A stretch of 64,000 bases of DNA, from assembly GCA_025174535.1 (NCBI GenBank), contig JALBUN010000010.1:1054001-1118000 (forward strand), read 5' to 3'. Position numbers and translations under genes: made by a program. The stretch comes from Cantharellus purpuraceus. Lineage: Eukaryota > Basidiomycota > Agaricomycetes > Cantharellales > Hydnaceae. Below the pieces are notes generated by a model. It was given only the letters and a program-made list of their open reading frames with translations, had not been told where the DNA came from and did not search any database. The first letter of the stretch is position 1. Every line of letters begins with the position of its first letter. This document shows, one piece after another, positions 8,011 to 52,237 of this stretch.

Positions 8011-8546
8011 GTGCCAGGTCATCGCCGCGTTTCTCCCTGTCTGTGGGTACCTTCCCTGTTGCGTAATCTCACTCCTTCCTCATAGGTGAAACGTAGCAAC
8101 TTTTAGCACGCTTGTTTCACACATGCCCATTCCCAGCGCTTTCTTCAACCATCCATTCCTTCCCTCTCAGTGAAGTGACAGTCAAACATCGCATCCTTCA
8201 TCCCCACTTAAATCATGCATCTTTCATTCCCATCGGCACGCATTAGTACTCATCACGTCGTTTCTTGTCATCGTTGCATCTTTCTTGTCCTGTCGTCGCT
8301 TGCACTTGAGCCATATAGCCTTCCATACAAAAATGATGAATCGAATCATTTTATCAGGCTAAAAGTACCATCTAAGTGTACATGGGCATTTAACATCAAA
8401 GAAAACATACAGTGACGACGAAAATGAACAGCGCCAGCCCACACTACAGATATTCATTGAAACCCCTCCGATCAGCAGACGAATAAATTTTCTAGAAAAT
8501 GCATGGCTAAAACCCGCGCCACGCATCATTAAGGGGAGAAGCGGTT
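8011..8546. other. Intergenic region between convergent genes
   Basis: Nothing coding is supported. It should contain the 3' UTRs of the proline/serine-rich gene and of the minus-strand orphan, whose ends face each other. Confidence 0.4.
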
Positions 8547-9157
8547 CTAGTACTGGCAATCACGTCCCACCAAGTCGCCACGAATGCAACCGAGGTCCAT
8601 CTTTCCGAAGCCCTGGACAAGACAGTCCAGGTCACGCAAGCGAGACTCGCGAGGGTGCCCGCGGGACATGTATGTCGTGTTGGATTTTTGAGAACTGTGC
8701 AGGGCGCTGGAGATGGCGCGTAACTGCACCAGCGCTTGCACTTTCCATTGTGGGAACGATTCCGTGCGCATGGTCGCAGCGGTGCCAGAGACGGCGGCGG
8801 AAGGGTGTTTAGGACGAGGACCTCCGAGGCGTTTGATCATCGCTTGGAGCTGTGATGATGATGGTTATTGTTAGGTATGGTATAATGGCGATGGGAAACG
8901 GGGAAACAACGCACGTTGTTTTCTATGACTCCTGTGTCACCTCCCAGGCTGAGTGATGCAGCCGAATGCACGAGCACGGCGTGCGACTGTAGTTGGAGCG
9001 GGCAATTCGGCTGCATCATCAGGAGCCACGAAAGGTGCATTGCGCGGGGAATGTCACTCTGCTCGAGGGCTAGCATTATGCCCTCCGCTAGTGCTCTTAG
9101 TGACGGCTGGGCTGTAGGATGAGCTGTTGGCATGATGATGATGGCGGTGTGTCGCAA
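8547..9157 (-). CDS. Orphan two-exon protein, about 170 aa
   Basis: Two open frames on the minus strand join into one reading frame of 170 codons if an intron at 8843-8940 is removed (minus strand GTGACA to CCAAG). Exon 1 (9157-8941) encodes a helical, leucine-rich N-terminus with the phrase LAEGIMLALEQSDIPRAMHL; exon 2 (8842-8547) starts MIKRLGGPRPKHP after the junction. An acceptor nine bases upstream (CACAG) would shift the frame and stop early, so I chose the in-frame one. The phase match and lack of stops are the only support; no family is recognised and no localisation signal is visible. Confidence 0.4.
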
Positions 9158-9504
9158 ATTGCAACCAAATAAACTAGGCTTTGTTGTGCAGCATATTTCA
9201 TGGACTTAGACCCATTATAAATGGGAAATGTCAACCGTGCTCAGTTATTGTGTGTACTGTTCTAGTATACATTTGGAGCTAGACGTCTTGAAGAGGGGAA
9301 GAATAAAATCGGAGTTTTAAAAATCCTCGGCGAGCCGTCATCAATTACCCCAGTAAGCTATTCACATTGCTCTTCGGTGCTTGTTGGCCAGCTTCTTCGA
9401 TCCGAGACAGTCCACTTATTGTCCAGGAAAGAAGCGACTCCTTTTTCTTCGGGGATGAAGGTTTAAGAAGCCCATTTCCTGCCCTCAGGTTACGGCAGCT
9501 GAGC

Positions 9505-27261: not shown

Positions 27262-27774
27262 TGTTACGCACTAGGTCCGATTGGGGTCAGAGATTGGGTC
27301 AGAGGTTGGGTCAGAGTCAGAGTACGTCGTGGGGGTCAGAATGGACTTGGCTTCAGCTTATGTGCTGCGCCCTCACTAATACTGGTGTCTGAGATTTCGG
27401 AGACGGAGTACGACTTAGAGAGTTAGGATCGGACTTAGGAGCTAGGCGTGATTCGATATTCGAACTGGGGAATGAAGTCCCCAGTTGGGCAACTTAAATA
27501 CATATTTGAAATCTAATAATAATTATTTTGGTGATGGGTCTCCAAGGCTGACGGCCTTACGTGAGTATGTCCGAGTCCAACGGGGACGGATGTCCGGGTT
27601 CCTATGGTGATGCTGATGCATCAATCGGAACCGGAGACAGATGGGCGGAATTGGCGGTGACAGTTGGACAGGCAAATGGAGACGTAGCGGTTTCCAAATG
27701 GAGTATAGATTTCATACGCGCGGATCTGAGGGGATCGGATGGGGATCTGGTTGTTAATGAATATAGTCATAACA
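27262..27774 (-). repeat. 3' LTR of element B1
   Basis: 513 bp with TG...CA ends (plus strand TGTTACGCAC to GTCATAACA). It matches four other B LTRs in the window. A short run of a 12-bp unit (ttgggtcagagg type) lies near its element-3' end at 27278-27310. Confidence 0.9.
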
Positions 27775-27876: not shown

Positions 27877-27885
27877 TATAAAAGG
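27877..27885 (+). promoter_or_regulatory. TATA box of the antisense gene, B1 copy
   Basis: TATAAAAGG lies 39 nt before the ATG at 27916 and about 100 nt inside the LTR border. The same word is at the same distance before the matching ATG in B2 (53301-53310), so it is a conserved core promoter pointing away from the 3' LTR and against gag-pol. Confidence 0.7.
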
Positions 27886-27915
27886 AGGGGCATGATTGAG
27901 GTCTGATCCTCAACG

Positions 27916-29499
27916 ATGTCAAACCCTTTGGCAAGCATGAGCATGGCCGAGCTGGAGCAGTTGCTCTTGGCCCGATGGAAGGAAGAGGAAGAGGAGCGGA
28001 ATTGGAAAGAGGAGGAGGAAGCAGAACGGAGACGGAAGGAGGAGGAGGAGGTGGAACGGAGACGGAAGGAGGAGGAGGAGGCGGAACAGAGACAGAAGGA
28101 GGAGGAGGAGGCGGAACGGAGACGGAAGGAGGAGGAGGAGGCAGAATGGAGACGGAAGGAGGAGGAGGAGCAGTGACAGAAAGAGGCGGCGAAAACGGAA
28201 CGGAGAAGGAAAGAGGAGGAAGCGAAGGCCGAGAGGGCCCACATGGTGAAGGAACTTGCGGCAGTGATGGAGGCTGCGAGACTGAAAGAAGTGGAGGAGC
28301 AGGCGCACGAGTTAGAGGCGACTCGTTCGAGGACTGTCACTGCGGAGGACTCACCGTTACGTCCGCGGGCATGGCCCTTATTTGAGTTAGGGGCAGCTGA
28401 GGAAGATGATGTGGCGGAGACGGAGAGGGCGGAGGTGGAGGTGGATCCCGATGCCAATGTGGAGCTCGATGCAACTGTGGAGCCCGAGGCGGGCGTGGAT
28501 GTTGGGACGGATGTGGAGCCGGATCCTACTTCAAATTCTTACGAGGAGATGGCTTGGGTAGCTGTGGTCGAGGCTCGCAAAAGAGCGGAGCTCTATGCCG
28601 CTACCACTAAGAAGAACCTCGACGTCGTGGTCTTTTCCCTGAAGGCGTACCCGAGTGCTGATACAGAGAAGCGAGAGGCGGACCGGAGGGTCATATGGTG
28701 CAAGGCGGAGAGTCGTGTGTTGGCGACCCGTAAGAAGGAGCTGCGTGTCGCAAGGTTGGCGATCCAGCTTCGCAAGTGCGAGATGGAGAAGGCGGCGGCA
28801 GAACAGCAGGACAAGGAGGAGGAGAGGGAACGCTTGGAGGCCGCAGCGAGAAGGGGTGGACCACCCAAGGCTCTGGCTCCAACGGAGCCATTTGGCGGAC
28901 CCGGCGTAACTTGCGACTTATGTCATGATGTGGGTGTGGAGTGCATGTGGCCTACCGGCCCAACTCGCCGACTTCGGTCCTGCGATCGTTGTCGGGGTCG
29001 GAAAGGAGGGTGTAGGATCGATGGGAAGTTCAATCCCTGGAGTCAGAGCATCAAGCCCCGACTAGTGGTACAAGGAGGGGCAGAGAAGGAATTGGAGGGT
29101 CGTCCAACCAAAAAGAGGCGGACGGAGACGGGTGCTGTGGCAGCCGGGGGTAGTGGCGTCGGATCGGAAGGGGCAACGACCGGTGCAGGTACGGGGCGTG
29201 TTTCGGCGCCCAATAGCACCGTGGGCCAGCTTATCCGGCTGGTTAACCTACAGTCGGAGCACCTTCGGCGGATGGAGGGGTTGTTGGTAGACTTGGTGAG
29301 GACGATGAAATGGAAGGAGGTTCTGGAGGGTCGTTGGACAGCCGAGTTACGTCGGTTGCGGAAATTCATGGCCCTGTTGGACGAGGATTTGGACATGGGA
29401 GATGAGAAGGATTGGGTGTTGGATGTAGAGAGTGATGAGGAGTCGGAGACGGAACCTGAGGTAGATAAGGGAAAGGGGAAAAGGAAACGCGATGTATAA
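27916..29499 (+). pseudogene. Antisense ORF of element B1: coiled coil plus Zn2Cys6-like protein (one in-frame TGA)
   Basis: Encoded on the strand opposite gag-pol, between the 3' LTR and the end of pol. The frame runs 528 codons with a single TGA at 28174-28176 in an Arg/Lys-rich context (B2 has a sense codon there). Parts in order: MSNPLASMSMAELEQLLLAR start; charged coiled coil of 10-residue KEEE repeats (residues 30-85); helical ARLKEVEEQAHELEA; acidic, Asp/Val-rich region (about 160-200); a second helical region; a cysteine cluster starting CDLCHDVGVEC (about residue 333) with C-X2-C-X6-C-X12-C-X2-C-X6-C spacing; basic PTKKRRTE (nuclear-signal-like); a C-terminal helix and an acidic-basic tail ending KGKGKRKRD. 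The spacing fits fungal Zn(II)2Cys6 clusters. Relative to B2 about 30 residues are missing after HELEA. Function unknown; a nuclear DNA-binding role is inference. Confidence 0.75.
28006..28170 (+). repeat. 30-bp coding tandem repeat in the antisense ORF, five units
   Basis: Five consecutive units encode EAERRRKEEE-like decapeptides (with V, Q and W variants). B2 has fewer units and a frameshift in the same place, showing that the array is unstable. Confidence 0.85.
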
Positions 29500-30311
29500 A
29501 ATAAAAATGAAAATGATTATAAATTTTGGAATGGAGAAAGAATGAGGCGGAGTGATTCCTTTGGAGCTTTTTGAGCAGGCTGGTAATTTCCCTTGACTTG
29601 TAATAAAATGGTGATGCAAAATAATAGAATTAGCATTAGTAATTGAACTTAAAGATTCATAAGAGGGCCAGGTTTGAGAGTTGGAGCGTCAAGCCCCGAC
29701 TAGTGGTACAAGGAGGGGCAGAGAAAGAATTGGAAGGTCGTCCAACCAAAAAGAGGCGGACGGAGATGGGTGCTGTGGCAGCTGGGGGTAGTGGTGTCGG
29801 ATCGGAAGGGGCAATGACCGGTGCAGGTATGGGGTGCGTCTCTGCACCCAATAGTACCGTGGGCCAGCTTATCCGGCTGGTTAACCTGCAGTCAGAGCAC
29901 CTTCGGCAGATGGAGGGTTGCTAGTGGACCTGGTGAGGACGATGAAACGGAAGGAGGTTCTGGAGGGTCAGTGGACGGCCGAGTTACGTCGGTTGCGGAA
30001 GTTCATGGCCCCTTTGGATGAGGATTTGGACATGGGAGATGAGAAAGATTGGGTGTCGGATGTAGAGAGTGATGATGAGTCGGAGATGGAGCCTGAGGTA
30101 GATAAGGGGAAGGGAAAAAGGAAACGTGATGTATAAAATAAAAAAATGAAAATGATTATAAATTTCAGAGCAGAGAAAAATGAGTCGGAGTGATATTCCT
30201 TCAGAGTTTTTTAGGCTGGTAATTTCCCTTGACTTGTAATAAAATGATGATGCAAAATAATAGAATTAGCATTAGTAATGGGACTTAAAGATTCATAAGA
30301 GGGCCAGGTTT
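29046..30311 (+). repeat. Tandem duplication of about 638 bp at the 3' end of the antisense ORF
   Basis: Unit 1 (29046-29676) and unit 2 (29684-30311) both start gagcRtcaagccccgactag and end ggccaggtttg. Each contains the last third of the antisense ORF, its stop codon, the following AT-rich region and the last codons of pol. Unit 2 (reading 29684-30136) has a small deletion near 29920 that shifts the frame. The unit next to pol is probably the original position, which puts the two convergent stops only about 150 bp apart. Confidence 0.85.
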
Positions 30312-33300
30312 GTCTGGATAAGCGGAGTGAAAGTCAGAGACGGATTCAGATGCGTGATCGAGTTTGGACACAGAGATCCATGAGGACTCTTCATCGGTGC
30401 CTTCGTATCCAGTCCATTTGACTAAGTACTGGAGCTTGCACTTGTATCGACGGTCAATCTTCGAGTCCAGGATCTCAGATATCTCATATTCATTGTCTCC
30501 TTCGATGATGATCAGGGGAGGTGGAGGTTGCATGTGACCAGAGATCTCGTTCGTAGTAGTGGGTTCGAGCATTGATATATGGAAGACTGGATGAACTGCT
30601 CGGAAGTGGTCTGGGAGGCAGAGGGTGAAGGACCTGCTGCCAGCGCGAGCAATGACCTCATAAGGACCTAAGTATTTCTCAGAGAGTTTCTTCGATGGGC
30701 GGGTGGTCCGGAAGTGTTTGGCCTTAGCAAATACTTTGTCTCTGATTTGCAGGTCCAGAGCTGGAATGCAGCATCGGTCTGCGGAGACTTGATATTGTTT
30801 CTGGGCATTGGAGATGGTTTCTCGGAGATGTTGGTGTAGTTGATTGAGGTCGGTTACGAATTGGTGGGCTTTGGTGGAGGCAAGTTCTTTCTCAGCGTGG
30901 ATGGAGATGTTTGGATAATAGCCTTTATTAGCAAAGAACGGAGAGATGCCAGTAGTCGCGTTCGGAGCATTGTTGTAGGCAACTCTGCGATCGGAAGTAG
31001 ATCAGCCCAGTTGTCTTGTTGATAGTTACAATAGATTTGGAGGTATTGTTCCAGGGACTGATTCATTTGTTCCGTTTGTCCGTCTTCTTCAAGATGGTAT
31101 CTGGAGGTGAAGTGAAGTTTCATGTCGAGAGCCTTTCCTAGTGTGCGGAAGAAGGAGGACATGAACTCCGAGCCCCAATCGGATGTGACATGCGATGGGA
31201 CTCCATGTTTAGAGAATACGTGGAGAATGAACAATTTAGCTAGTGAGGTGGAGGTGATGGTATCATGTGTTGGAATGAATAGTGACTGTTTAGTGAACCT
31301 GTTGACAATCACGAGTATGGTGTCGTATCCGAGCAATGGGGTGAGCTTCTCTATGAAATCCATGGAGATGGAGTTCCATGGTTGCTCCGGGACCGGAAGT
31401 TGCTTAAGCGTTCTGTAGGGTTTGTGCCTTTGCAATTTTGAGCGCATACACGTGGTGCAGGAGTTACAGTAGTGTTGAATGTATTCTCGCATTTTTGGCC
31501 ATACATAGTCTTGTTGGATTAATCCTTGTGTGTGATTTTGCCTGAAATGGCTGGAGATTGGGTGATCATGGTAATACTGCAAAACTCGGAGTCGGAGGCC
31601 GTTGGTGTCGGGGATGTATATCTGGTTGTTGTGTCGGAGGTGTCCTTTGGGGTCAAGTGACCATTTGGGATCGGAAGGGTTGTCCAAGTGTTTAACTGCA
31701 ACAGGATCAGATTGGAGTGATGAGCAGATGTCGGAGTGGAGTTGGTTGATGTCTATAATGGTGACAGCTCGGAGGGTGGGAGTCATGAGGGTGGATGCTT
31801 GTAGGGACAATGCCAGCTGCTCGTTAGTAAACACAGGGTGAAAGTTGTGTGGGTTTACAGTGGCATAGTCGCTATTCCCCTCTTTAGGGTAGACGTCCCA
31901 TTGTCTAGTTAACACGTTGGGCTTTGCTCCGAGTCGACCTGGACGGAAACGGATAATGAGATTGAACTGAGATGGGTATTTGGACCATCGGACTTGTCTC
32001 CAGGTGAGCAGTTTCATTGTGGAGAAGTATTCCAAGTTTTTGTGGTCAGTTATGACGTCCACCGGATCGGAGGGGCCTTCAAGGTAGTGTCTCCATATCC
32101 GGAAGGCTTCATATATGGCAAGGAGCTCTTTGTCATGGACGTCATAGTTCAGTTCAGGGGGCATAAATGTATGCGAGTGAAAAGCGATCGGATGGACTTG
32201 TCCGTCGTCCGGAGAGATGATGGACAGGATCGCAGCAAGTGCATAGTTGGAGGCGTCGGTCTCTAATAGGATGGGAACGTCTGGAGCCCAATGAGTCAGT
32301 ATTGGAGCGGAAGTAAAGGCCTTTTTCAAGGTCTCAAAGCTCTGTCTACATTCGTCAGTGAAATTCCATTGGATACCCTTCCTAGTGAGTTGGGTGAGCA
32401 GAACGGTGATATCGGAGTAGCCATAAATGAAGCGGCGGTAGAAGTTGGCGAACCCTAGGAAGGACTGTACGTCCTTGACTTTCTGGGGTTCTGGCCATTC
32501 CTGTATGGCTTTGATTTTGTCATCAGACATTGTCAATCCTGCTGGGGAGAGGATATAGCCTAGGTATTCGACCGAGTTGGAGTGGAATTTGCATTTGTCA
32601 GCACGGGCGAAGAGGCCATGTTTTCGGAGATGTTGGAGTACATCTCGGACATGTGTCTGATGTTCTTCTTCATTGTCTGAATATACCAAAATGTCGTCTA
32701 AGTAAACGAGGACAGTCACATTGAGGAGGTTGGCGAAGGTATCATTCATGAACCTCTGGAAGGTGGCTGGAGCATTGGTTAGTCCAAAGGGCATGACGCA
32801 CCACTCGAAAGATCCATATCATGCGGAAGGTCGTTTTCCATTCGTCGCCTTCTCGGATGTGGACTAGGTGGTAGGCATGTTGGAGATCTATTTTGGAATA
32901 TATCTTAGCCTTTCAAGGACTCTCGAGTAGGTCCGCGGTGCGGGGTATCAGGTACCGGTCTTTCTTGGTGATCTTGTTGAGTCCACGGAAGTCGATGCAT
33001 AGATGGAGTGATCTGTCCTTTTTGCAGACAAATAGGACCAGAGCTCCATGGGGAGATAGGGATGGGTGGATGAAGCCCGTGGCCAAGTTCTTGTCTATGA
33101 ATGTTTGGAGAGCCAGTAGCTCTTTTTGGATAGCGAGTAGATAGGGCCAAGTGGAGGGGTGGAGTTGTCATCCAGTTCGATCTTGAGATTGTATGGTCGG
33201 TGTTCCGCTAGGGAGTCGGCTTTAGACTTGCTGAACACATCAGCGAACTCATGATACTCCTTAGGAACCATAGATAGGTCCGGTGGAGTGGATCGGGCAG

Positions 33301-34972
33301 AATGAGCGGCGAGGAATATCGGATCGGAGAGGTGGACCTGGAATGTGTGAGAACCATCCAGCTTGCTTAGTCTGGTGAAGACCATAGCGTCCACCATCGG
33401 TGGGGTAGACGGAGTATCTATCAGAGCGGAGTCAGTGGAGGCGGAAGATAGTTTCACACCTAAAGTTGCTGGTGACGTCGGGGATGACACAGCCTGTGCT
33501 GGAGAACGGAATGTGATATGGCCCAATGCCCAGTCAATCAACAGATTGTAGCGGGTGAGCCAGTTATGTCCGAGAACCACAGAACAGCTGGAGTCAAGTG
33601 GAGTAACATAGAATGTAAGGTTCTGGATTTCTCTGACAGAAAAACGGATAGACAGGTCTATAGCTTGTGAAATAACAGCATTAGTAGTGCCATCAAATAA
33701 TCAGAGTGGTGTATGTATGGAGTTTATGTAAATCGGAAAAAGAGGAATTGAGGAAACAGTGAGTAGAACCGGAGTCAATTAATGCTTGAATAGCAGTATT
33801 GGGAATGGAGTCGGAGTAGACGAGGAGGGTAAGGGAGTCAGAGTGGGAAAGAGTGGATGCGTTCAGGTGGACCTCGTTTGTCATACGGGGAGTACCAATG
33901 CAGCCCTCAGCCCGTACGGAGGCTATAGGACTGCTTACTATTTTTTTGGGTCTGTCGCTTTTGCGTCGGACTTGTCTGTTGTGGCGTTGGCAGCACAGCC
34001 CTTTGCCTTTGCTGTGGACGAGGTTGCCTTGTTGCAATCCTTGGCTTGGTGGCCTGGCTTTCCGCAGAACAGACAGAGGTTGTTGTCCATGTGGCACTGG
34101 TGTTCCTGCTGGGTAAGTTTCCTGTCCTTCCCCAGCTTGGTGGAGAGGTCCGGAGTACTCTTGCGAGCTCCAGAGTTATTGCTGGTGCCGGAATTGTTCT
34201 GACCGGAACTGGAGGCGGCAGTGTTACCAGTGTTTGACTTCTGGCCTGAGTTGGTGGTGGCCCTCTTATCGGACCCCTTGTTGGACTTTGGGGTCTTGTC
34301 CAATGATTTGTCCGATTTGTTGTTGGCTGAATTTTCGCAGGAGACCTCAGATTGACGTTCCCAATAATGGGCATCGATGGATTGGGTGAGCTTGCGAAGG
34401 GTAACCAAAGTATCTGGCTTACCGATGCGTGATATCTCGTCCTTGATGTGGGATGGGAGTCCAACGTAAAATTGGTGTCAGAGTGCGGTGTCGCCCCATT
34501 GGACTTTCGGAGCTAGCTGCTGGAAACTCACAATGTATTTTGCGATTTTGTGATTTTCCTTCATTCGAAGTTGATCGAGTTCATTCTTGGCATTGGCCTC
34601 GGGGTTGTAAGGACCAAAATTGGTCCAAAGTTTGGAGATGAAGTCGGAGTAGTCCTCTGACCATATTGGGTCATTGGAGTCGTCCATGAGTGCTGGCTCA
34701 AAGTAGTCCAGTGCAGTGCCCTTGAGATAGGACATGGCGAAGGTGACCTTTGCCCAATCAGATGTGAATGCGTCGGGGCAGTTGCGGAAATTCAACCAGC
34801 ATTGCACCAAGAACAGCTGGAGCTTTTGCGGATCGGAGCCATCGAATGGGTCGGGTTCTCGGACCTTGGTCCAGGACTTAGGGGCTTGTGGGTTACGGAT
34901 GCTGCTGGCAAGCAGGGAGATGGCTTGCGCCAGATTTGGAGAGGGCGGGGTGTCATCTTCTTCATTGACGGC
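30285..34972 (-). pseudogene. Gag-Pol of element B1, decayed (main part)
   Basis: Minus strand, order gag to chromodomain. Gag core with MSYLKGTALDYF (about 34740); a TGA near 34478 interrupts it; CCHC knuckle CLFCGKPGHQAKDC (about 34060); protease LIDSGSTHCFL (about 33770); RT with a frameshift near 33130 and again near 32800, [13 protein letters not shown] and the catalytic YLDD (about 32690); RNase H LETDASNYA (about 32255); integrase HHCC zinc finger (HDHPISSHF to CNSCTTC, about 31450-31540) and D,D,E residues in SMDFI, TSDWGSEF and DGQTEQMNQ; a frameshift near 30960; and a C-terminal chromodomain in which YLVKWTGYEG is clear (30285-30572). This is the chromovirus branch of Ty3/Gypsy. Several breaks make it non-functional. 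Confidence 0.9.
34968..34972. repeat. Target-site duplication ACGGC, left of element A
   Basis: ACGGC directly precedes the left LTR and recurs directly after the right LTR at 46692-46696, as expected for a 5-bp Gypsy integration. Confidence 0.95.
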
Positions 34973-36436: not shown

Positions 36437-37465
36437 CTAGTCACGCACATCTTTCCTCCCTTCCATCCTCTCATATCCTCCAGAGTTACCCGTGGCATAA
36501 GGATTTTTGAACACACGAGTCGTGAGTCGAGTCCGACGAGTCAATATAGGTTTAGGAACTCGAGGATCATAGGAGTGAGTTGAGTTTTTGTGATAGGGAG
36601 GAGGAGCTGGTGAGTTGGGAGGAGTGGTGATAGAAGACGTGGGAGCAGAGTATGAGCTAACATATCCACGTGAAAGGGAAAGGTACATCTCTCGAAGTTG
36701 GGTCGCTGAAGGTTGCCACAACACAAGTTGTTTCTTGTTGGCATCGTCACCATCACGATTGGCCTCGAAAGGGGACGACCAGCGGGGTCTTTTGAGACCA
36801 TCAGGTTCAGCATGGGCTCTGAAAGCATGAACGACTGGGAGAGAGGGGAGAGAGGACTCGGATATAGTGGAGTTCACCTCAGTGGCTTGGGAGATTCCGT
36901 CATCAAATTCTGACACGTCATCCAAAGGATGGGAGTAGAGTGGTGAAGTTGGCCACCTCCAGGAGCAGCCTGGGAGGCGTGCACTATTGATTTTGGATTT
37001 GCAGATCCATGCAGAGAGCTGGCGAGACTGATTCTGCCAAGCACGGATCCATTCACGTATGACAGAGGGTTTCTCTGGGAGGAGGAAGAAGTTGAATGAG
37101 AGTTGGTTACGAGCTGGAAAAGGAGGGGGAATCATATCTATCTCCTGGAGCTTTCCAAGAGGAATCTCAGAAGGGAGAGGTTCGAGGGCTGACTCGCCGT
37201 CCCATCCGTGAGCAGCTGCGAGAATGTATCGAGTTTTCATCTTCAACGTCTCCCAGAAGCTGCTGGCAAGGTCATTGCGTAGTATGGCATACTCACTTGC
37301 CGGTGCTTCAAGATAGATGAAGTCAAAACGATTGGGTTGGTAGAAGTCGAAGTTGGAAGTGAATTGGAGTCCGTAGTTAGGTACAGGAACTCCACCTTGT
37401 ATATATGTATCGTTTTCTTTATGAATCACGAAGTCAATGACAGACACATCAGGGTAGTTAGCCAT
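36437..37465 (-). CDS. Second sense ORF of element A, 342 aa, no known family
   Basis: Lies downstream of pol on the same strand, 197 bp after the pol stop and about 30 bp before the PPT, in the slot where env-like genes sit in other LTR elements. Seen: no signal peptide and no membrane segment. The N-terminal two thirds look folded, with aromatic-rich stretches (FDFYQPNRFDFIYLEAPASEY, residues about 38-58; WIRAWQNQSRQLSAWIC, about 137-153; then a WRWPTSPLY loop). The C-terminal third is Ser/Pro-rich and basic (PAPPPYHKN; TRRTRLTTRVFKN). The frame is open for 342 codons in an element that otherwise looks young, which argues that it is coding. It is not an envelope by any feature I can see. 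Role unknown; expression could be from a subgenomic RNA or by reinitiation. Confidence 0.7.
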   Translation of the reverse strand: MANYPDVSVIDFVIHKENDTYIQGGVPVPNYGLQFTSNFDFYQPNRFDFIYLEAPASEYAILRNDLASSFWETLKMKTRYILAAAHGWDGESALEPLPSEIPLGKLQEIDMIPPPFPARNQLSFNFFLLPEKPSVIREWIRAWQNQSRQLSAWICKSKINSARLPGCSWRWPTSPLYSHPLDDVSEFDDGISQATEVNSTISESSLPSLPVVHAFRAHAEPDGLKRPRWSSPFEANRDGDDANKKQLVLWQPSATQLREMYLSLSRGYVSSYSAPTSSITTPPNSPAPPPYHKNSTHSYDPRVPKPILTRRTRLTTRVFKNPYATGNSGGYERMEGRKDVRD

Positions 37466-37662: not shown

Positions 37663-40600
37663 CTAGTGGCGAGAGATACCCCGATCGCGTCGATCCCAAT
37701 CGCGAAGGAGGTCGGGAGCGTTGCGAAGGTTCTTTCGCGGGAGCCACTCGTCATATGATGAGTCGTATCCGATGAAACGCGTGAGGAGCTCCTGGACACG
37801 CCGGCCATTACGGGCCTTTCGCCATCGTTCACTGATGATGGACTCGACCTCGAATTCTGGGAGTTGCGTGAAATCAGCGCGTTCAAGAGATCTGAGAGGT
37901 CGTGAACCGAAGGAAGGGGGTGAGGAGGAGTAGAGCTCGAGGTGAGCGATGTTAAGGACAGGGTGGAGCCCGTATGACGCAGGCATGCGAAGGCGATAGG
38001 TAGCCGGCCCTAATTTTTGTATGATATCAAAGGGGCCATCGTATTTCATTTGGAGCTTCTTACCTAGGCCTTTCTGAGCATGCAATAGACTGAGGGAATG
38101 GGGATTGATGAGAACGCGATCGCCAACGTCGAATTCTTGAGCCAGACGACCGGTGTTGAAATTCTTTTGCTGAGCAACCTGCGCAAATTGCAGGGCTTCT
38201 CTAGCCTGAGATCGGTAAGTAGCTAATTCACTTAGGAAGTCCATAGCTTTCGTACTTTCAACTTCATTGGCAGGGGACTTGATTAAATCAACGCGATCGA
38301 CCGATCCAACTGGTCGCGGGGCCGGCGGGCTGGAAGGCCGGTGAACGCCGTGAGTAGATGAATGAATGTAGGAAGAAGGAGTGCGTGGATGGTAGCCATA
38401 CAGTAGAAATGCCGGCGCGAATCCAGTCGCGGAGTGTGGGAGGTTATTGTAGGATAGAGCAAATGGAGAGAGGAGAGCCGCCCAGTTGTCGCGCGTCGGG
38501 CTTACATAAGAACGTAGCGCGGTTTCAAGCGTCTGGTTCAACACCTCAGTTTGACCATCTGCTTGAGGGTGATAGGCTGTAGTTAGAGCTCTTCTAGTAT
38601 TTATTTGCTTGCATATCTCTTTCCAGAAGGTGCTGGTCCATCTGGGATCTCTGTCGGATATAATTTGTTTGGGAATTCCATATTTGGATAGCACATGTTC
38701 AAACAGTATCCGAGCAGTTCCCTCCTCATTAATAGTGCTTTGAGTAGGGACAAAGATGCCAAACTTTGTAAGTTTATCCACTATCACCAGGATGGAATCG
38801 TACCCATTGCTCTCGGGTAATTCCATAATGAAGTCCATGGTGATAACTTCAAAAGGATTTTCTGGAATAGGTATGGGCTGCAACAGTCCAATAGGTGCGT
38901 GTCGCCTTGGTTTGGCTTTCTGGCAAATATCACAGCTTACAACAAACTTCTTGACATCTCTACTCATTCTAGGCCAATAGAAGGTAGAAGCCAGTTTGTT
39001 GTACGTTTTATGATAACCCGCATGAGCTCCTTCAGTGATTTCATCATGAATTTCACTTAGAAGATTAGATTGCTCAGCCTTGGGTACGCATAGCCTGTAA
39101 TTGCCATTCCAATCTTCAAAGTAAAGCAATCCATCCTCATTTTCAAAAAAGAGTGGATGCTTCGGACTGATCCAATTAGACTCCTGTCGTAATTCAGATC
39201 TGACCCTTTTGAAGTAAGGATCTTTGGCATACGCATCAACTATTTTCTGAATCTCTTCCTGAGCAAGGCTAGAGACTAGATTATAGCCTTTGGCTGTCAC
39301 GTATGGAATGGTGAAATCTTCTTCCAGGCTGGTATTGACTTGGATGGAAGAAGCATGCACGTTCAGTGGAATTCTCTGGTTCTCTTCTTCATATGCAGCC
39401 ATTAACATTAAAGTTCTGGCTTCAAAGTGAGGAGAGATATCAGAATAAAAATCCACAAGTGGATCCTGTTCCGAGTCCAGGATAGTAGGAATGGAGTCAT
39501 CAGAAGAAGGCCCATCTTGATATGGAACATTCCTTCTGAGTCTGGAAATAGGATCTACATTAGAGTGAACCCGTCCTGCTCGGTGTACGATTTTTAATTC
39601 AGGGTATGCAGCAAATACAGTTCCCCAAGTTAATAACCGCCGATTAACATTTTGGTAGGTCCGACTCCAGATGAGGGCTGCATGGTCTGTGATGGCTACT
39701 ACTTTCTCCCCTTCAATGTAGGGTTGAAATTTGATAAGACCGTCTCGTAATGCAAGCGCCTCCCTTTCTGTAGGAGAGTAATTCCTTTCAGCTGGTTTCA
39801 AGGTACGAGACCAGTAAGCAATGACTCGTTCTACTGAAACCGTAGTGTTTTCAAAGTCTTTATCCCAAGTACCTGGCTTAGGGAGAGTTTCATCTTTTAA
39901 CACAGGAATCACCAATTGTGGTACAGGTAATCCTTTGTCATAAGCTGATTTGAGTTTCTCATACCCTTTGGTACCTTTGAGATCTCTGATTTTGAGAGGT
40001 TGAATCTGCTGAAGTATAGCAGCGATTCCGACATCACATGCATCAGAGTAGACTCTATATCCGAGACCAGGAATGGCATACGCTCTGACTGGCGCACTGA
40101 CAAGGGCATTTTTAGCCAAATCAAAGGCTTCTTGTTGAGTATTGCCCCATTCCCAAGTTGAATTCTTTTTGAGCAATTCAAACAAGGGAGCTACAATCCA
40201 TGCATAGAATGGTATATATGAGGAGAAGTATACCACCATTCCGAGGAAGATTTGTAGGTCATGCACATTCTTTGGTTCTGCCAATTCCAGTATAGCATCT
40301 ATCTTCTCCTTGTGAGTTGATAGACCTAACCGTGATACCTTTTGTCCTAACAGTAGCAATGACTGGTAGGCCAAATGGCACTTAGCAGGAGATAAGGTGA
40401 TTCCAGACTTTTCTATAGCTCCGAACACTTTGTCTAGATGATCCAAGTGTTCTTTGAATGTCTTGGAATATATGACAATATCATCAATATAGACCAGGGC
40501 AAACACCCATAGAAAAGGTGCTAGGACACCTTGCATCACTCTTTGAAAGACTGCAGGTCCATTCCGATACCCAAAGGGCATCCGTTTGAACTGATACAGT

Positions 40601-43600
40601 CCTCTATGAGTTCTGAATGCAGTTTTTTCTTTGGCACTGTCCGACATTTGCAGCTGTGTGAAACCCGCTAATGCATCCAAGGTGGATAACCAACGAGATC
40701 CAGTGAGTGCCTGCAAAATGGAATCTTGTCTTGGCAAGGGAAATTCATCCGGGACAGCAATCTCATTGAGTTTCCTATAGTCTATACACATTCTTGGTTT
40801 CCCATTACGATAGGCTATAAGTGCTGGAAAACCCCAAGGACTTTTGGATGGTTCAATGACTCCAAGACTGAGCCAAGCATCCATTTGCTTGTCAATGACT
40901 TCCCTTTTGGCAGGTGAGGCATTATAAGGAGGTAGTGAAATTTCTTTGGCCTCAGGCCTGAGATTGATTTCAACTTTTGCATCATAATTGCCAAGTCTGC
41001 CATCAAGACCAAATGCGTCTTTATGTGCCAGAACTGTATCTTGGAGAGCCTTCCTATTGGCATCATTGAGCTCTGGTGAGAAGTCAATTTCATCCAACAG
41101 TTGGTTTTCAGGAACATCCTCAGGGGGAATTTCCTGAGCCTTAGGTCCTCCTTGTACCACCTCTCCATCTGATTCAAGAGAGGCAACAGTAGGTACCGCA
41201 CCAGTCTCAAAGTTCTGTTGAGCAAGAGCTTTTATGAGTCTGGCGTGAGAGAGACAAGTCTCTAATTGAGTCTGGTTCAAATTAGAAGTCCGATCCAGCC
41301 AATTGGAAGGATTTCTAGCATGACCCAGAAGTTGTCCTTGATGTATAGTAACTGGTTGTGATGAAAAATTGCTAACATGTAGGCACGGGTTATTCCGAGA
41401 TACAATTGCGTCTGAGATGCCATAGAAATCTTCAGGCCCATGATTGGAGTGAAGCACTTTTTCCACATAAACTTCATTACTATTCCCAGGGAAATAGATA
41501 GAAGCAGGAATTAGAGAAGCAGTTTCAGGAGGAATTGTGACGGGATGTAAGGCCCTAACACTTGAATCAGAAATGCGTGCTCTAATCCGTTTCCGAGATT
41601 TCTTAATACGTCTATGAGCCTTGAACTTTGCAGTTAGAGATGCAAGGTCAGGAAGGGCTCTTATTTTAAAGGTGTGACCATTCTCATCCAATAAGGGTGA
41701 GCTCACTGAGTTCTCAATCTTGGCTTTCCGTCCAGTATTACCAAACATAAGATAGCTATCTGAGCCTTCTCTTATAAGTGAGATAGAGTACTGATCAGCA
41801 AAATCATTCCCAAGAATGACAGGGGTAGTCATGCCTTTGACCACATAAGCTTCAACTTCAATCTGAACTGGTCCAGAGTCAGAGTCAAAGTAAATGGGCA
41901 CCGTAACGTATCCAGAAATTTTGGATGTGCCAGTAACTTGTATCAAGTTAATTTTCTGACCTGTTTTGATCTTAGGAGGATTCTCCATAGAGCAAAGAGC
42001 TTTCTGAGAGATAAGGGTTATGTCTGAACCAGAATCAGCTACAAGGGTAGTTTGATTCTTTCCATATTCTCCCAGCCAAACATTAGTAGTGGTTGCAGAA
42101 GATCCAAGGAAGGCACAGCCTGCTGGTCTGGACATGAAACGCTTGAGTTTAATCAAGGAGTTAGGAGCCCAACTAGTAAGCTTAGAATTCCTTAGGAAAG
42201 CAGCTACATGTTTGGAATCTTTCATTAACCTTCTCCTCTCTTGACGAGATTTAGGAGTGAATGTCTCAGAAAAAGAGTTTTCCAGAGACAAAGGCTCAGA
42301 AGATTTTTCTCTATTAGGTATGGATCCCCCCAGTCGGGACATACTTTCCAGCAAGCTCATGGCTGGTTTAGCAAGTTGACAATGTGCCTCTGTATCCTGA
42401 GCAGATTCCTGTTGATCCGATGAAGGTTCTTCAGGGATATTCTCAGTCGCAACATTATTAACATGAGCATTGTCTGAACTTAAATCCACTTCTGATTCAT
42501 GAAGTGATTCAAGGTACATATCCTCATAGGCAAGGTCTGCATTAGCTTCTTCATTAGAAACCGTGTAACGTGTATGGGCAGAGCGAGATGCTGAACTGGC
42601 ATGTTTGCACTCATTATCCCAATGCTTGTTACTGCCACAATGCCTGCAAGGTCTAGCTCCTTTGGATTCAGGTGTGGAATTTTTAGACACATTAGAATCA
42701 TCCCGAGGGAATTTTGGAGGATTCAATTTGGATGACCATCCAACCAGATGAGCTCTAGCATCTCTAAAAGATCTGTTCGAGTCAAACCTAGGTTTGGTTT
42801 GATGCAAAGAATTTTCCAAATTTCTAATACGTCTTTCCAGGTTGTCTCCTGAAGAGAAAGGAGCATGTGACAATGATTCCTCGTGATACTTGATAGCAGT
42901 TTGGAATTCCACTGCAGATGAACACCTGTGAGCATCAATGACTGTGTGCCAATATGGTGGAGCACCATTCATGATTTCCAATATAAGCTCTGAGTCTGAC
43001 AGCTTGCTGACCAGTCTCAATAGCTCTGACTTTCTAACGTAATACTCACTAGGAGTCTCATTAGTAAAGCCAGGCTCTCTGAAAGTAGCACGAGTTGCTC
43101 TAGCTTTCTGCCTATCCAACCAGGCTCTGTTCATATAGTATGAACCAATGACTTCTCTGATGGACTTCCAGTCCTCAGTTGCTTCTTGGCGATATGACAA
43201 TGGTAAGGAGAAAAACCATCTCTCAGCTCCTTTACGCAACCGCAAAGGGATAATTTGTCCCAATTGCTTGAAGACCATAGGAGATCGCTGAGCCAAATGA
43301 TTTACTTTCAATATCCATTGAGCCAAACTGTCAGGGTTTCCATCCCACTCAGGGACTAAGTCCTGACGCAACTTGTTATCAAAGTAAGCTTCCAGCTTGC
43401 TCTGAGTCACTGGAGCGTCTAATCCGAGATTAGGATTTCTCTGATCAAGATTCCCCCAGTCTGGACTATGACCGTAACCTCCACCATCACCTCCATCAGG
43501 AGGACCTGAGCCTCCATGCCTACCCAGAGGGGGAGGATTACTCCTTCCACTTCTATGTGGCAATGATGGTCTAGGCAAAAATGGATTAGGTGTATGAGGG

Positions 43601-45126
43601 GGACCAGATGATCCGTCATCATCAGGAGGTTCTCCTCCAGGAGGTGGAGCACCTCCTCCAGAAGCTCCATAAGTTCCGTGAGGAACCCTAATGGATTCTG
43701 GAATGCCTAAAGTACCCCTGCTCTGAACTTGAGGAGGAGTATAGAACATTTCTTCCAAACCTGCAGATCCCGTAAGTTTACTAGGATCCTGATGGTAAGG
43801 AGAATTGAAAAGAGTAGAGGGTCTGGGACCACGGTTGTAAACCGCAGACTGTCTCTGTCTAATCCGTTCATGATCAACTGGAAATTTTTCTCCTTGATCC
43901 AATCTGGAAATCAAAGGAGCTTCCTTAACAGTATAGGCAACAGTTGACTGCTGAGCATCCCTGACAGGCATAGCTGCAAGAGTGGGAAGATCATGTCCAA
44001 GGACAGGATTCACCGATGCATTAATGACTTTAGCTTCATAAAAACTAGTATCCGCAGCAACCTTTCTCTGCAAAGCAGCTTGGGCAGCAGCGAAGTGAAT
44101 TTTGAAACCATTAATGTCAGAAGACATCTCAGAAATGTCTGGGAGAGCAGGAGACAGAAAGTCATCCTTTACTGGTTTCCAAGAACCCTTGTACTTGGAT
44201 ACAGTATCCCAATAAAATGCCAAAAAGTTTTCTACATCTTCACGTAGTGTAACACAAAGCACTTCCAGGTCTTTGGAACTCCAAAGGGAGTCACTAGGCC
44301 ATTCCGAAGGCAATGTAGGGACAGTAGGAGGAGGAAGTTTCATCTGCTGCAGAACACTTTCTCTCTCATTTGCAATATGATTAAGAGTGTCTAACAGTTG
44401 CTTATACTTCCATGGATCAAGATAATACCCCGTACTACCATGCTGACTAACTCGTCCAGGATGTCCGAGCAGTACCACATTGAGTAACGCTAATTCTTTC
44501 CTGAAGAGTCCAGTAGCAAGACGATTCAGAGCTCTAGTACCTGGTGCTTCCGCACGATTAAAGCTCATCTCTGCAATGCTAAGGAGTGAATCTCTTCTGG
44601 AAGAGAGTAGGGGATCAAGTCTGACCTCTCTCCGTACTCTTGCTGCACTGAAGCTTTTCAAAGGCTTACCAGGCACTACGAAGACATTTTGTAATGGTCC
44701 TGTGATCAGGGGTCCATCAAAAGTCCAATTGGTAAGTGCATGGTTAGTCTGATCAACTTCCACAGCAAAAGAGGCATCAGCAGCACTAATCTCTTCATCC
44801 GTAGTAAATGTCTGGTCAAGATCATTCACAGGAGTAAGTGGGGATCTAGTGTGCAAGAAGCCAGGAGTGATAGGGGCAATAGGTCGCTCTGGTTGAGCAG
44901 CCAAAGGAGTAGACGGGTCGTCCTCGAGTTGTTGTTGTTGTTGAATTGTTGAAGTAGACATGTTGCTCAGCTTGAATGAGGTCAACTTGTCACGAGGTCG
45001 ATACGATTCGAAACGAGTTTGTATACGAGTTGGTGTTGGATAAGGGTTTAGATAAAGAGGAGAGTTAGGATTAGAGGAGGAGGGCAGACGAGTGTGACTA
45101 TAGAACTTGTCTTCTGGAAATTCCAA
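37663..45126 (-). CDS. Gag-Pol polyprotein of element A (chromovirus-type Ty3/Gypsy), 2487 aa
   Basis: One continuous frame, so gag and pol are made without frameshifting. In order: long N-terminal extension; proline/glycine-rich segment (about 480-560); capsid-like retrotransposon gag domain (WDGNPDSLAQWILKVNHL, about 600-770); CCHC knuckle CRHCGSNKHWDNEC (about 825); aspartic protease LVADSGSDITLIS (about 1030); reverse transcriptase with RMPFGYRNGPAVFQ and catalytic YIDD (about 1549); RNase H with YSDACDVGIAAIL (about 1692); integrase zinc finger and D,D,E residues in TMDFI (about 2096), ISDRDPRW (about 2159) and GQTEVLNQ (about 2195); and a divergent chromodomain near the end (FIGYDSSYDEWLPRKNL). 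The usual YLVKW core of the chromodomain is changed, so histone binding is uncertain. Gag may start at 45126 or at the internal ATG of MSTST. No stop or frameshift seen. Confidence 0.95.
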   Translation of the reverse strand: MEFPEDKFYSHTRLPSSSNPNSPLYLNPYPTPTRIQTRFESYRPRDKLTSFKLSNMSTSTIQQQQQLEDDPSTPLAAQPERPIAPITPGFLHTRSPLTPVNDLDQTFTTDEEISAADASFAVEVDQTNHALTNWTFDGPLITGPLQNVFVVPGKPLKSFSAARVRREVRLDPLLSSRRDSLLSIAEMSFNRAEAPGTRALNRLATGLFRKELALLNVVLLGHPGRVSQHGSTGYYLDPWKYKQLLDTLNHIANERESVLQQMKLPPPTVPTLPSEWPSDSLWSSKDLEVLCVTLREDVENFLAFYWDTVSKYKGSWKPVKDDFLSPALPDISEMSSDINGFKIHFAAAQAALQRKVAADTSFYEAKVINASVNPVLGHDLPTLAAMPVRDAQQSTVAYTVKEAPLISRLDQGEKFPVDHERIRQRQSAVYNRGPRPSTLFNSPYHQDPSKLTGSAGLEEMFYTPPQVQSRGTLGIPESIRVPHGTYGASGGGAPPPGGEPPDDDGSSGPPHTPNPFLPRPSLPHRSGRSNPPPLGRHGGSGPPDGGDGGGYGHSPDWGNLDQRNPNLGLDAPVTQSKLEAYFDNKLRQDLVPEWDGNPDSLAQWILKVNHLAQRSPMVFKQLGQIIPLRLRKGAERWFFSLPLSYRQEATEDWKSIREVIGSYYMNRAWLDRQKARATRATFREPGFTNETPSEYYVRKSELLRLVSKLSDSELILEIMNGAPPYWHTVIDAHRCSSAVEFQTAIKYHEESLSHAPFSSGDNLERRIRNLENSLHQTKPRFDSNRSFRDARAHLVGWSSKLNPPKFPRDDSNVSKNSTPESKGARPCRHCGSNKHWDNECKHASSASRSAHTRYTVSNEEANADLAYEDMYLESLHESEVDLSSDNAHVNNVATENIPEEPSSDQQESAQDTEAHCQLAKPAMSLLESMSRLGGSIPNREKSSEPLSLENSFSETFTPKSRQERRRLMKDSKHVAAFLRNSKLTSWAPNSLIKLKRFMSRPAGCAFLGSSATTTNVWLGEYGKNQTTLVADSGSDITLISQKALCSMENPPKIKTGQKINLIQVTGTSKISGYVTVPIYFDSDSGPVQIEVEAYVVKGMTTPVILGNDFADQYSISLIREGSDSYLMFGNTGRKAKIENSVSSPLLDENGHTFKIRALPDLASLTAKFKAHRRIKKSRKRIRARISDSSVRALHPVTIPPETASLIPASIYFPGNSNEVYVEKVLHSNHGPEDFYGISDAIVSRNNPCLHVSNFSSQPVTIHQGQLLGHARNPSNWLDRTSNLNQTQLETCLSHARLIKALAQQNFETGAVPTVASLESDGEVVQGGPKAQEIPPEDVPENQLLDEIDFSPELNDANRKALQDTVLAHKDAFGLDGRLGNYDAKVEINLRPEAKEISLPPYNASPAKREVIDKQMDAWLSLGVIEPSKSPWGFPALIAYRNGKPRMCIDYRKLNEIAVPDEFPLPRQDSILQALTGSRWLSTLDALAGFTQLQMSDSAKEKTAFRTHRGLYQFKRMPFGYRNGPAVFQRVMQGVLAPFLWVFALVYIDDIVIYSKTFKEHLDHLDKVFGAIEKSGITLSPAKCHLAYQSLLLLGQKVSRLGLSTHKEKIDAILELAEPKNVHDLQIFLGMVVYFSSYIPFYAWIVAPLFELLKKNSTWEWGNTQQEAFDLAKNALVSAPVRAYAIPGLGYRVYSDACDVGIAAILQQIQPLKIRDLKGTKGYEKLKSAYDKGLPVPQLVIPVLKDETLPKPGTWDKDFENTTVSVERVIAYWSRTLKPAERNYSPTEREALALRDGLIKFQPYIEGEKVVAITDHAALIWSRTYQNVNRRLLTWGTVFAAYPELKIVHRAGRVHSNVDPISRLRRNVPYQDGPSSDDSIPTILDSEQDPLVDFYSDISPHFEARTLMLMAAYEEENQRIPLNVHASSIQVNTSLEEDFTIPYVTAKGYNLVSSLAQEEIQKIVDAYAKDPYFKRVRSELRQESNWISPKHPLFFENEDGLLYFEDWNGNYRLCVPKAEQSNLLSEIHDEITEGAHAGYHKTYNKLASTFYWPRMSRDVKKFVVSCDICQKAKPRRHAPIGLLQPIPIPENPFEVITMDFIMELPESNGYDSILVIVDKLTKFGIFVPTQSTINEEGTARILFEHVLSKYGIPKQIISDRDPRWTSTFWKEICKQINTRRALTTAYHPQADGQTEVLNQTLETALRSYVSPTRDNWAALLSPFALSYNNLPHSATGFAPAFLLYGYHPRTPSSYIHSSTHGVHRPSSPPAPRPVGSVDRVDLIKSPANEVESTKAMDFLSELATYRSQAREALQFAQVAQQKNFNTGRLAQEFDVGDRVLINPHSLSLLHAQKGLGKKLQMKYDGPFDIIQKLGPATYRLRMPASYGLHPVLNIAHLELYSSSPPSFGSRPLRSLERADFTQLPEFEVESIISERWRKARNGRRVQELLTRFIGYDSSYDEWLPRKNLRNAPDLLRDWDRRDRGISRH

Positions 45127-46836: not shown

Positions 46837-47769
46837 TGTTACGCACTAGGTCCGATTGGGGGTTGGAGATTGGGTCAGAGGTCAGGTCGGAGGTTTCGTC
46901 GGAGTTGGAGAACGTTGTGGGGGTCGGAATGGACTTGGCTTCAGCTTATGTGCTGTGCCCTCACTAATACCAGTGTCTGAGACGGAGTACAACTTAGAGA
47001 GTTAGGATCGGACTTAGGAACTAGGTGTTATGACTATATTCATTAACGCCCAGATCCCCGTCCGATCCCCTCAGATCCCCGCACATATGAAATCTATACT
47101 CCATTTGGAAACTGCTACATCTCCATTTACCTGTCTGATTGTCACCACTGATTCCGCCCATCTGTCTCTGGTTCCGATTGATGCATCAGCATCACCATAG
47201 GAACCCGGACATCCATCCCCGTTGGACTTGGACATACTCATGTAAGGCCGTCGGCCTCAGGGACCCATCACCGGAGTAATTATTATTAGATTTCAAAATA
47301 TGTATTTAAGTTGCCTGACTGGGGACTTCATTCCCCAGTTCGAATATCGAATCACGCCTAGCTCCTAAGTCCGATCCTAACTCTCTAAGTCATACTCCGT
47401 CTCCGAAATCTCAGACACCAGTATTAGGGCGCAGCACATAAGCTGAAGCCAAGTCCGTTCTGACCCCCACGACATACTCTGACTCCGACCCAACCTCCGA
47501 CCCAACCTCCGATCCAATCTCCGACCCCAAATCGGACCTAGTGCGTAACACTAGGTGTGATTCGATATTTGAACTGGGGAATGAAGTCCCCAGTCAGGCA
47601 ACTTAAATACATATTTTGAAATCTAATAATAATTACTCTGGTGATGGGTCTCCGAGGCTGACGGCCTTACATGAGTATGTCCGAGTCTGATGGGGACGGA
47701 TGTCCGGGTTCCTATGGTGATGCTCATGCATCAATTGGAACCGGAGATGGATGGGTGGAATTGGCGGTG
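46837..47769 (-). repeat. 5' LTR of element B1, interrupted and truncated
   Basis: Begins TGTTACGCAC on the plus strand at the border with gag. It is split by a solo B LTR in opposite orientation (47026-47550) and cut short at GGCGGTG, where B2's 5' LTR starts; the remaining outer part is not found in the window. Confidence 0.85.
47026..47550 (+). mobile_element. Solo B-family LTR inserted in B1's 5' LTR
   Basis: 525 bp, TGTTATGACT to GTGCGTAACA, flanked by the 5-bp direct repeat CTAGG (47021-47025 and 47551-47555). Orientation is opposite to the host LTR, so together they form a large inverted repeat. The internal part was lost by LTR-LTR recombination, which preserves the TSD. Confidence 0.93.
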
Positions 47770-48308
47770 TGTTATGACTATATTCATTAATGACCAGATC
47801 CCCGTCCGATCCCCTCAGATCCCCATGCATATGAAATCTATACTCCATTTGGAAACTGCTACGTCTCCATTTACCTGTCTGATTGTCACCGCCAATTCCG
47901 CCCATCTGTCTCCGGTTCCGATTGATGCATCAGCATCACCATAGGAACCCGGACATCCGTCCCCGTTGGACTCGGACATACTCACGTAAGGCCGTCAGCC
48001 TCGGAGACCCATCACCGGAGTAATTATTATTAGATTTCAAATATGTATTTAAGTTGCCCAACTGGGGACTTCATTCCCCAGTTCGAATATCGAATCACGC
48101 CTAGCTCCTAAGTCCGATCCTAACTCTCTAAGTTGTACTCCGTCTCCGAAATCTCGGACACCAGTATTAGTGAGGGCGTAGCACATAAGCTGAAGCCAAG
48201 TCCGTTCCAACCCCCATGACGTACTCCGACTCCGACCCAACCTCCGACCCAACCTCCGACCCAACCTCCGATCCAATCTCCGACCCCAATCGGACCCAGT
48301 GCGTAACA
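47770..48308 (+). repeat. 5' LTR of element B2
   Basis: 539 bp, TGTTATGACT to GTGCGTAACA. It contains TATTTAAG at 48046-48053 and, 33 bp further on, the proposed RNA 5' end CAGTTCGAATAT (48079-48090). A 12-bp unit (acctccgaccca) is present about four times at 48225-48285. Confidence 0.9.
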
Positions 48309-52233: not shown

Positions 52234-52237
52234 ACAG

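Follow-up and report, generated by a model that had tools for sequence, protein, structure and literature searches.

The window analysed here, a stretch of 64,000 nucleotides from contig JALBUN010000010.1 (positions 1,054,001 to 1,118,000, forward strand) of the Cantharellus purpuraceus assembly (40.15 Mb in 50 contigs), contains two copies, B1 and B2, of a Gypsy/Ty3 chromovirus, element B, which is present in high copy number and carries an antisense open reading frame (AO) between pol and the 3' long terminal repeat (LTR), on the opposite strand and facing pol. Comparison of copies across the genome reveals that AO, about 549 codons in length, was selected as a protein during the spread of the family, less strictly than pol, with near-neutral decay after insertion. 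Its features suggest that AO is, on balance, probably a nuclear DNA-binding accessory regulator of element B.

Position and orientation of AO in element B

In the AO copy L033, the C-terminus of pol contains the integrase core (rve), SH3_Tf2-1 and Chromo domains, all above their Pfam cut-offs, which identifies the element as a chromovirus. Among 7974 candidates scored against the B1 pol in the protein set, 7096 were relatives at E<=1e-3 (best, 71% identity), and those named among the 120 listed include Leucocoprinus, Coprinellus, Trametes and Pisolithus, all Agaricomycetes. The complete copy L036 has LTRs of 540 and 546 bp that are 89.9% identical, with ends TGTTA to TAACA in the element sense, and is bordered by a 5-bp repeat (TAGTT), so that paired LTRs and a target duplication are documented for this one copy. 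In L036, AO reads towards pol from an ATG 142 nt from the edge of the 3' LTR, and in L033 it ends approximately 150 nt short of the pol stop; AO thus has the position of aORF-3R genes, antisense to gag-pol and between pol and the 3' LTR.

The same arrangement recurs across the genome. The pattern TATAAAAGG-N20-40-ATG gave 644 matches against 100 for a reversed-pattern control, and most of the matches listed, which reach into contig C3, belong to element B, some places matching twice. A search of the genome with the AO protein, in which the best 99 of 1227 candidates were scored (78-100% identical), found a stop-free matched stretch in 55 of the 99, and pairing the 99 AO hits with 68 pol hits gave 33 pairs lying no more than 5 kb apart, 30 of them convergent, 26 of these with a gap of 722-933 nt. 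Of 28 copies selected by protein, 27 had an oppositely oriented pol C-terminus next to AO, and the remaining one (L021) is located where a contig ends. The corresponding figure was 11 of 20 for the positional copies, which were picked on contig C1 by the TATA pattern rather than by protein and for each of which 3 kb was fetched. The initial annotation had placed an antisense gene between pol and the 3' LTR in both window copies, which is borne out there and by orientation genome-wide.

Selection on the AO frame

For the analysis of selection, the codons of each copy were placed in the columns of an uninterrupted copy, and the observed nonsynonymous (N) and synonymous (S) variants were compared with expected counts matched for base change; wherever CpG columns were retained, the matching extended to neighbouring bases. 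Variants present in at least 4 copies were treated as shared and set beside private variants, over AO residues 90-549 in 52 copies and the pol C-terminus in 41; a diverged AO subfamily was added to widen the test. Protein score decided the choice of about half of the copies, the AO frame defines the codon columns, each related copy counts as an observation of its own, and the intervals are codon bootstraps. Shared variants in AO gave an N/S ratio (w) of 0.57 (0.50-0.66) and private variants 0.87 (0.72-1.06); without CpG columns these became 0.20 (0.13-0.27) and 0.85 (0.67-1.07). The low shared and near-neutral private ratios indicate that AO was kept as a protein while the family spread. For the pol C-terminus, the values were 0.51 (shared) and 0.77 (private), or 0.05 and 0.76 without CpG columns, so AO was selected more weakly than pol; over all columns, its shared ratio is similar to that of pol, conservation comparable to that of other element proteins being a further property of aORF-3R genes. 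In the positional set (15 of the 20 C1 copies plus the reference L002), shared AO variants outside CpG columns gave 0.17 (0.10-0.27). A dN/dS ratio near 1 with no intact copies had been named initially as evidence against the gene; the ratio and the six uninterrupted copies described below point the other way.

Stops within residues 90-549 averaged 1.10 per copy in the AO frame vs 6.0-20.0 in the other five (52 copies), and shared variants read in other frames gave w = 1.27-1.39, except in the reverse frame that shares wobble positions (0.68). That reverse frame carried 6.0 stops per copy and was open in 0/52 copies. The reverse frame of pol behaves likewise (0.64), and since pol mirrors the pattern, the value of 0.68 is read as a shadow of the AO frame. 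An origin of AO in an overlapping frame or in base composition was rejected on these six-frame stop and N/S counts.

Most individual copies have decayed. AO was uninterrupted in 6 of 43 copies with an exact start (L002, L003, L012, L018, L026 and L030, the tail of L012 being frameshifted), and 12 of the 43 had a stop after 19 codons, where an arginine codon CGA can turn into TGA; the CpG of this codon was CG in 44% and TG/CA in 56% of 25 copies. Among the best 68 of 2354 pol candidates, which were those scored, only the window's own copy was stop-free in the compared stretch, and in six full copies most pol stops were TGA where other copies have CGA, most of them private to one copy. Across 25 copies, many CpGs in LTR and upstream sequence between -677 and +57 of the AO ATG were about half decayed to TG/CA. 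The family thus looks old and decaying through CpG loss, and the half-decayed sites suggest strong cytosine methylation of transposons in the host.

Separately, stops were present in all 67 scored pol copies outside the window vs none in 55 of the 99 AO hits; AO is shorter than pol and possibly has fewer CGA codons. L038 (C1:3303146-3313145) and the AO copy at C1:3317344 form tandem AO elements in which 1354 bp including an LTR show 98.9% identity, which is what recombination between elements would be expected to yield. L059 (C17:679659-682636) and L060 (C49:2584-5561) share identical stops, frames and match coordinates on different contigs, and represent either a recent segmental duplication or a repeated assembly stretch.

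A core-promoter candidate upstream of AO

Of the 28 protein-selected copies, 25 carry the motif TATAAAAGG at a distance of 39 nt ahead of the ATG. Twenty-five copies, picked by protein and exact ATG context, were aligned and compared by mean pairwise difference over non-CpG columns; the motif was exact in 24 of them, and the segment from -39 to -1 showed a difference of 0.011 per pair vs 0.060 for -142 to -40 (103 nt) and 0.062 for the LTR body. The segment is thus 5-6 times less variable than its flanks, and 0 of 483 upstream 39-nt windows were as low. A TATA box 30-40 nt before the ATG had been claimed for both window copies and was found as described (TATAAAAGG at 27877-27885 and ATG at 27916 in B1; 53309 and 53270 in B2). 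A further ATG occurs at -24, which would precede a transcription start about 30 nt after the TATA box, so that the conserved ATG would be the first in the message. On this pattern of conservation, the TATA-to-ATG segment is a core-promoter candidate for AO.

The AO protein and its six-cysteine cluster

The 549-residue AO of L033 begins with MSNPLAS, followed by ERRRKEEEEA-type charged repeats, a long helical middle part and a C-terminal part comprising a six-cysteine cluster (residues 355-388), a basic stretch, a C-terminal helix and a KGKGKRK tail. The MSNPLASMS start and the KEEE repeat region of the initial annotation are both present, as is the C-X2-C-X6-C-X12-C-X2-C-X6-C spacing reported for B1. 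On the AO strand, the N-terminal repeats contain hardly any T, which leaves them open in several frames. AlphaFold was run on the two window copies, giving models too poor for a fold search; the low-confidence model of B1 predicts helices at 103-138, 145-208 and 330-387. Each cysteine of the cluster is conserved in 96-100% of 49-51 copies (mean 0.984 vs 0.864 for residues 90-549), and random sets of six residues match this with P=0.018, while Cys 243 and 418 are mostly Arg in other copies.

Zn(II)2Cys6 proteins follow the spacing rule CX2CX6C-X5-12-CX2CX6-8C, with which the AO cluster agrees (CX2CX6C-X12-CX2CX6C); as in this family (PF00172; Gal4), a predicted helix follows and one half is basic. 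The two halves were scored as log-odds from matrices built on the host PF00172 clusters and Gal4, with canonical halves left out in turn. Canonical first halves scored +15.3 to +29.0 (9) and canonical second halves -27.0 to -5.3 (15), whereas the medians for AO were -3.4 in the first half (49 copies, range -6.3 to 2.5) and +9.4 in the second (48 copies, range 3.7 to 18.5). A basic first and neutral second half were therefore not found in AO. Each of its halves leans towards the canonical class of the other position, first towards second and second towards first, and both medians fall between the classes on a small training set. PF00172 was found at 19 places in the genome, and the AO cluster in none of their translations. 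Standard membership of PF00172 was rejected, there being no profile match and the half polarity being reversed; of the proposed Zn(II)2Cys6 likeness the spacing stands, but a recognised domain does not, and convergence is as possible as permutation.

Copies B1 and B2 in the window

The features of element B in the window are as follows.

27262-27774, minus strand: 3' LTR of B1 (blastn of the L036 LTR and sequence; left edge approximate, right edge TAACA at 27770-27774)
27877-27885, plus strand: TATAAAAGG, TATA-type, 39 nt before the antisense ATG (sequence and copy comparison)
27916-29499, plus strand: AO of B1, interrupted by an in-frame TGA (28174-28176) but open thereafter, from 28177 up to its stop codon (29497-29499)
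28004-28170, plus strand: 30-bp tandem repeat coding for the ERRRKEEEEA-type charged repeats (TRF)
28912-29013, plus strand: six-cysteine cluster, C-X2-C-X6-C-X12-C-X2-C-X6-C (sequence; conserved across copies)
29678-30312, plus strand: repeat of the AO 3' end with the spacer downstream of it, the pieces showing 90-97% identity to 29040-29676
30285-34972, minus strand: frameshifted gag-pol region of B1, with the C-terminus of pol at the low end and 30854-32794 as the largest open part
47770-48308, plus strand: LTR at the 5' end of B2 (further LTR copy at 47026-47550)
52234-53270, minus strand: AO of B2, cut inside the cysteine cluster
53412-54106, plus strand: 3' LTR of B2, with an expanded 12-bp minisatellite at 53871-54083

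From its ATG at 27916, the B1 frame meets a TGA at codon 87, after 86 codons, and B1 lacks about 40 residues that are found in B2 and L033. Its AO 3' end is duplicated (29040-29676 repeated at 29678-30312), so that the interval 27877-30136, which had been given as the gene, holds one AO copy together with a second 3' end. B2 retains the start, with its TATA and ATG on the minus strand, and a deletion near 52,234 fuses the cysteine-cluster region to a pol fragment. The observation was thus correct in kind, but B1 and B2 are both non-working genes; overall, what the initial annotation observed was confirmed in part, and its interpretation as a possible regulator partly supported.

Relatives of AO and known antisense genes

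In the same protein set that yielded 7096 pol relatives, residues 120-549 of the L033 AO had no match at E<=1e-3 among 7994 candidates scored from 5.8 billion proteins. With residues 320-402 of the L036 AO as the query, 132 candidates gave no match at E<=10. Both searches need shared 5-residue words, the candidate set of the first was capped, and distant relatives can be missed. Viral contigs showed no match to AO or pol, a search of the PDB by sequence returned a single chance-level match (E=3), and the sole Pfam line for AO was Nrap_D5, below the cut-off (E=0.17). AO may have arisen or been captured in this lineage, or may exist elsewhere unannotated or too diverged.

The sole fungal antisense gene of this kind found in the literature, in a search outside which most subscription papers lay, was brtn, reportedly described by Zhao et al. 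in 2011. In the available text of the sources, brtn is an extra gene that Boty-like Gypsy elements of Botrytis cinerea and Sclerotinia sclerotiorum carry on the antisense strand, between pol and the 3' LTR (PMC7264820, PMC8365987), and so resembles AO in its strand and in its place within a fungal Gypsy element. It differs in having ascomycete hosts, whereas the named relatives of the AO-bearing pol are basidiomycetes, BRTN being considered here by description only. The initial annotation knew of no described fungal chromovirus with a Zn2Cys6-like antisense protein; brtn is a precedent for the arrangement, while for the AO protein no relative was found. The arrangement is already known from other elements, and the AO protein family looks new.

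Among plants, the available text of two of the sources lists as aORF-3R genes gene23 of Grande and those of RIRE2, Retand (TRP28, PF04195) and PvRetro13; gene23 has its own upstream promoter and is nuclear, and DNA binding has been proposed for TRP28 (PMC7264820, PMC11963269). The roles of such antisense genes are described there as unknown (PMC7264820, PMC11963269, PMC8365987), and an antisense mRNA is reported, in the part of the source available, for a mussel LTR element (PMC10974842). AO differs from the plant genes in showing no Pfam match over the cut-off, and thus no TRP28, in belonging to a fungal chromovirus and in its six-cysteine cluster. HTLV-1 HBZ is a bZIP protein, and AO had no bZIP match in Pfam at E<=1. 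By analogy, HBZ may resemble AO as read here in being an antisense-encoded nuclear regulator adjoining the 3' LTR; its antisense promoter lies in the 3' LTR (PMC7264820, available text), whereas AO, which has the cysteine cluster, would start within the element, its ATG being separated from the LTR edge by 142 nt.

Proposed role of AO and alternative explanations

As an accessory regulator, AO would be read opposite to gag-pol from an internal TATA-type core promoter just inside the 3' LTR, convergent with pol, as a short-leader mRNA starting about 30 nt after the TATA box. The protein would enter the nucleus, dimerise and bind DNA, the features in view being the charged ER/K-type N-terminal repeats, the long helices, a zinc-binuclear-like cluster that would bind metal, the basic stretches and the C-terminal helix. 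It may regulate the element's own transcription or transposition, with the LTR as a plausible target. The unit CTCCGACCCAAC is repeated 3.8 times in the LTR copy at 47.0-47.6 kb and 4.8 times in that at 47.8-48.3 kb, and a form without CpG makes up 17.8 nearly identical 12-bp units in the LTR at 53.4-54.1 kb. In the LTR sequence of 25 aligned copies, five CpGs (or their TG/CA decay products) recur at exact 12-nt spacing. Zinc-cluster proteins commonly read CGG triplets, and the minisatellite, with CGG triplets every 12 bp, is a plausible candidate target of AO. A more specific version, in which AO would be a sequence-specific transcription factor with a hitherto undescribed, permuted Zn2Cys6 domain (CX2CX6C halves reversed) that binds these 12-bp-spaced CGGs and links the antisense promoter to sense control, is rather improbable; were it true, the reversed cluster would represent a domain missed by PF00172.

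Several results weigh against the regulatory reading. No AO homologue of known function was found in the protein searches, and the PF00172 profile did not match AO at E<=1 in Pfam. The AlphaFold model is poor (mean pLDDT 53, pTM 0.25), with the cluster not modelled. Taken singly, the cluster cysteines reach only the 49th-76th percentile of residue conservation, and the cluster N/S of 0.68 (0.48-0.93) is no tighter than the rest of AO. Outside CpG columns, constraint on AO is looser than on pol (0.20 vs 0.05), and private variants in the positional set also fall below 1 (0.60, 0.46-0.77), so that they are either not purely neutral there or affected by alignment bias. Nine of the 20 positional copies had no pol C-terminus within the 3 kb fetched. 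The LTR CGG repeats sit in CpG-rich sequence, where CGG is common, and the TATA-to-ATG segment could be conserved otherwise, for example in the sense RNA.

The second choice, possible but less likely, is that AO is a real accessory protein acting outside transcription, for example as a nucleic-acid chaperone or in integration targeting, nuclear import or the countering of host silencing. The evidence of selection applies equally to such a role, charged helices and a basic tail suit many kinds of RNA or DNA binding, and with about half of the upstream and LTR CpGs decayed, host methylation looks strong; but the spacing and conservation of the cysteines favour a metal-bound fold, and nothing positive was found for import or anti-silencing. 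That the antisense RNA rather than the protein matters, forming double-stranded RNA with the gag-pol 3' UTR and limiting copy number, is very unlikely: the TATA-to-ATG segment is conserved, the layout is convergent in 30 of 33 nearby pairs and such a role is discussed for plant elements in the available text of PMC7264820, but a shared N/S of 0.20 outside CpG columns and a 549-codon open frame are unexpected of a non-coding RNA. A captured host gene or decaying passenger with no role for the element would be in keeping with the lack of relatives in protein searches, by which AO may be a recent gain, with the two broken window copies and with the interruption of 37 of 43 exact-start copies. Purifying selection acted on shared variants throughout the family's spread, in the positional set too, and the oppositely oriented pol C-terminus accompanies AO in all but one of the 28 protein-selected copies and in 11 of the 20 positional ones, which makes that account highly improbable. 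The chance that AO arose incidentally from overlapping coding on the gag-pol strand or from the base composition of that strand appears negligible, even though the wobble-sharing reverse frame also has w<1 (0.68) and the nearly T-free repeats are open in several frames, given 6.0 stops per copy and 0/52 open copies in that frame and the equivalent pol shadow of 0.64.

Element B is a high-copy family in one compact genome, whose copies allow selection to be measured on AO and pol side by side. The core-promoter candidate, putative DNA-binding motif and candidate LTR target would together make the role of such genes testable by binding and reporter assays.

Other observations

The minisatellites of the B-element LTRs lie at 53871-54083, 47483-47527 and 48230-48286. 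A second Gypsy-type element occupies 37663-45126 of the window (minus strand) with an open gag-pol of 2487 codons, downstream of which, on the same strand, a 342-codon open reading frame starting MANYPDVSVIDFVIHKEND is found at 36437-37465; a 307-codon relative of the MANYPDVSVIDFVIHKEND frame is located at 8275-9198 of the stretch fetched around the AO copy L033.

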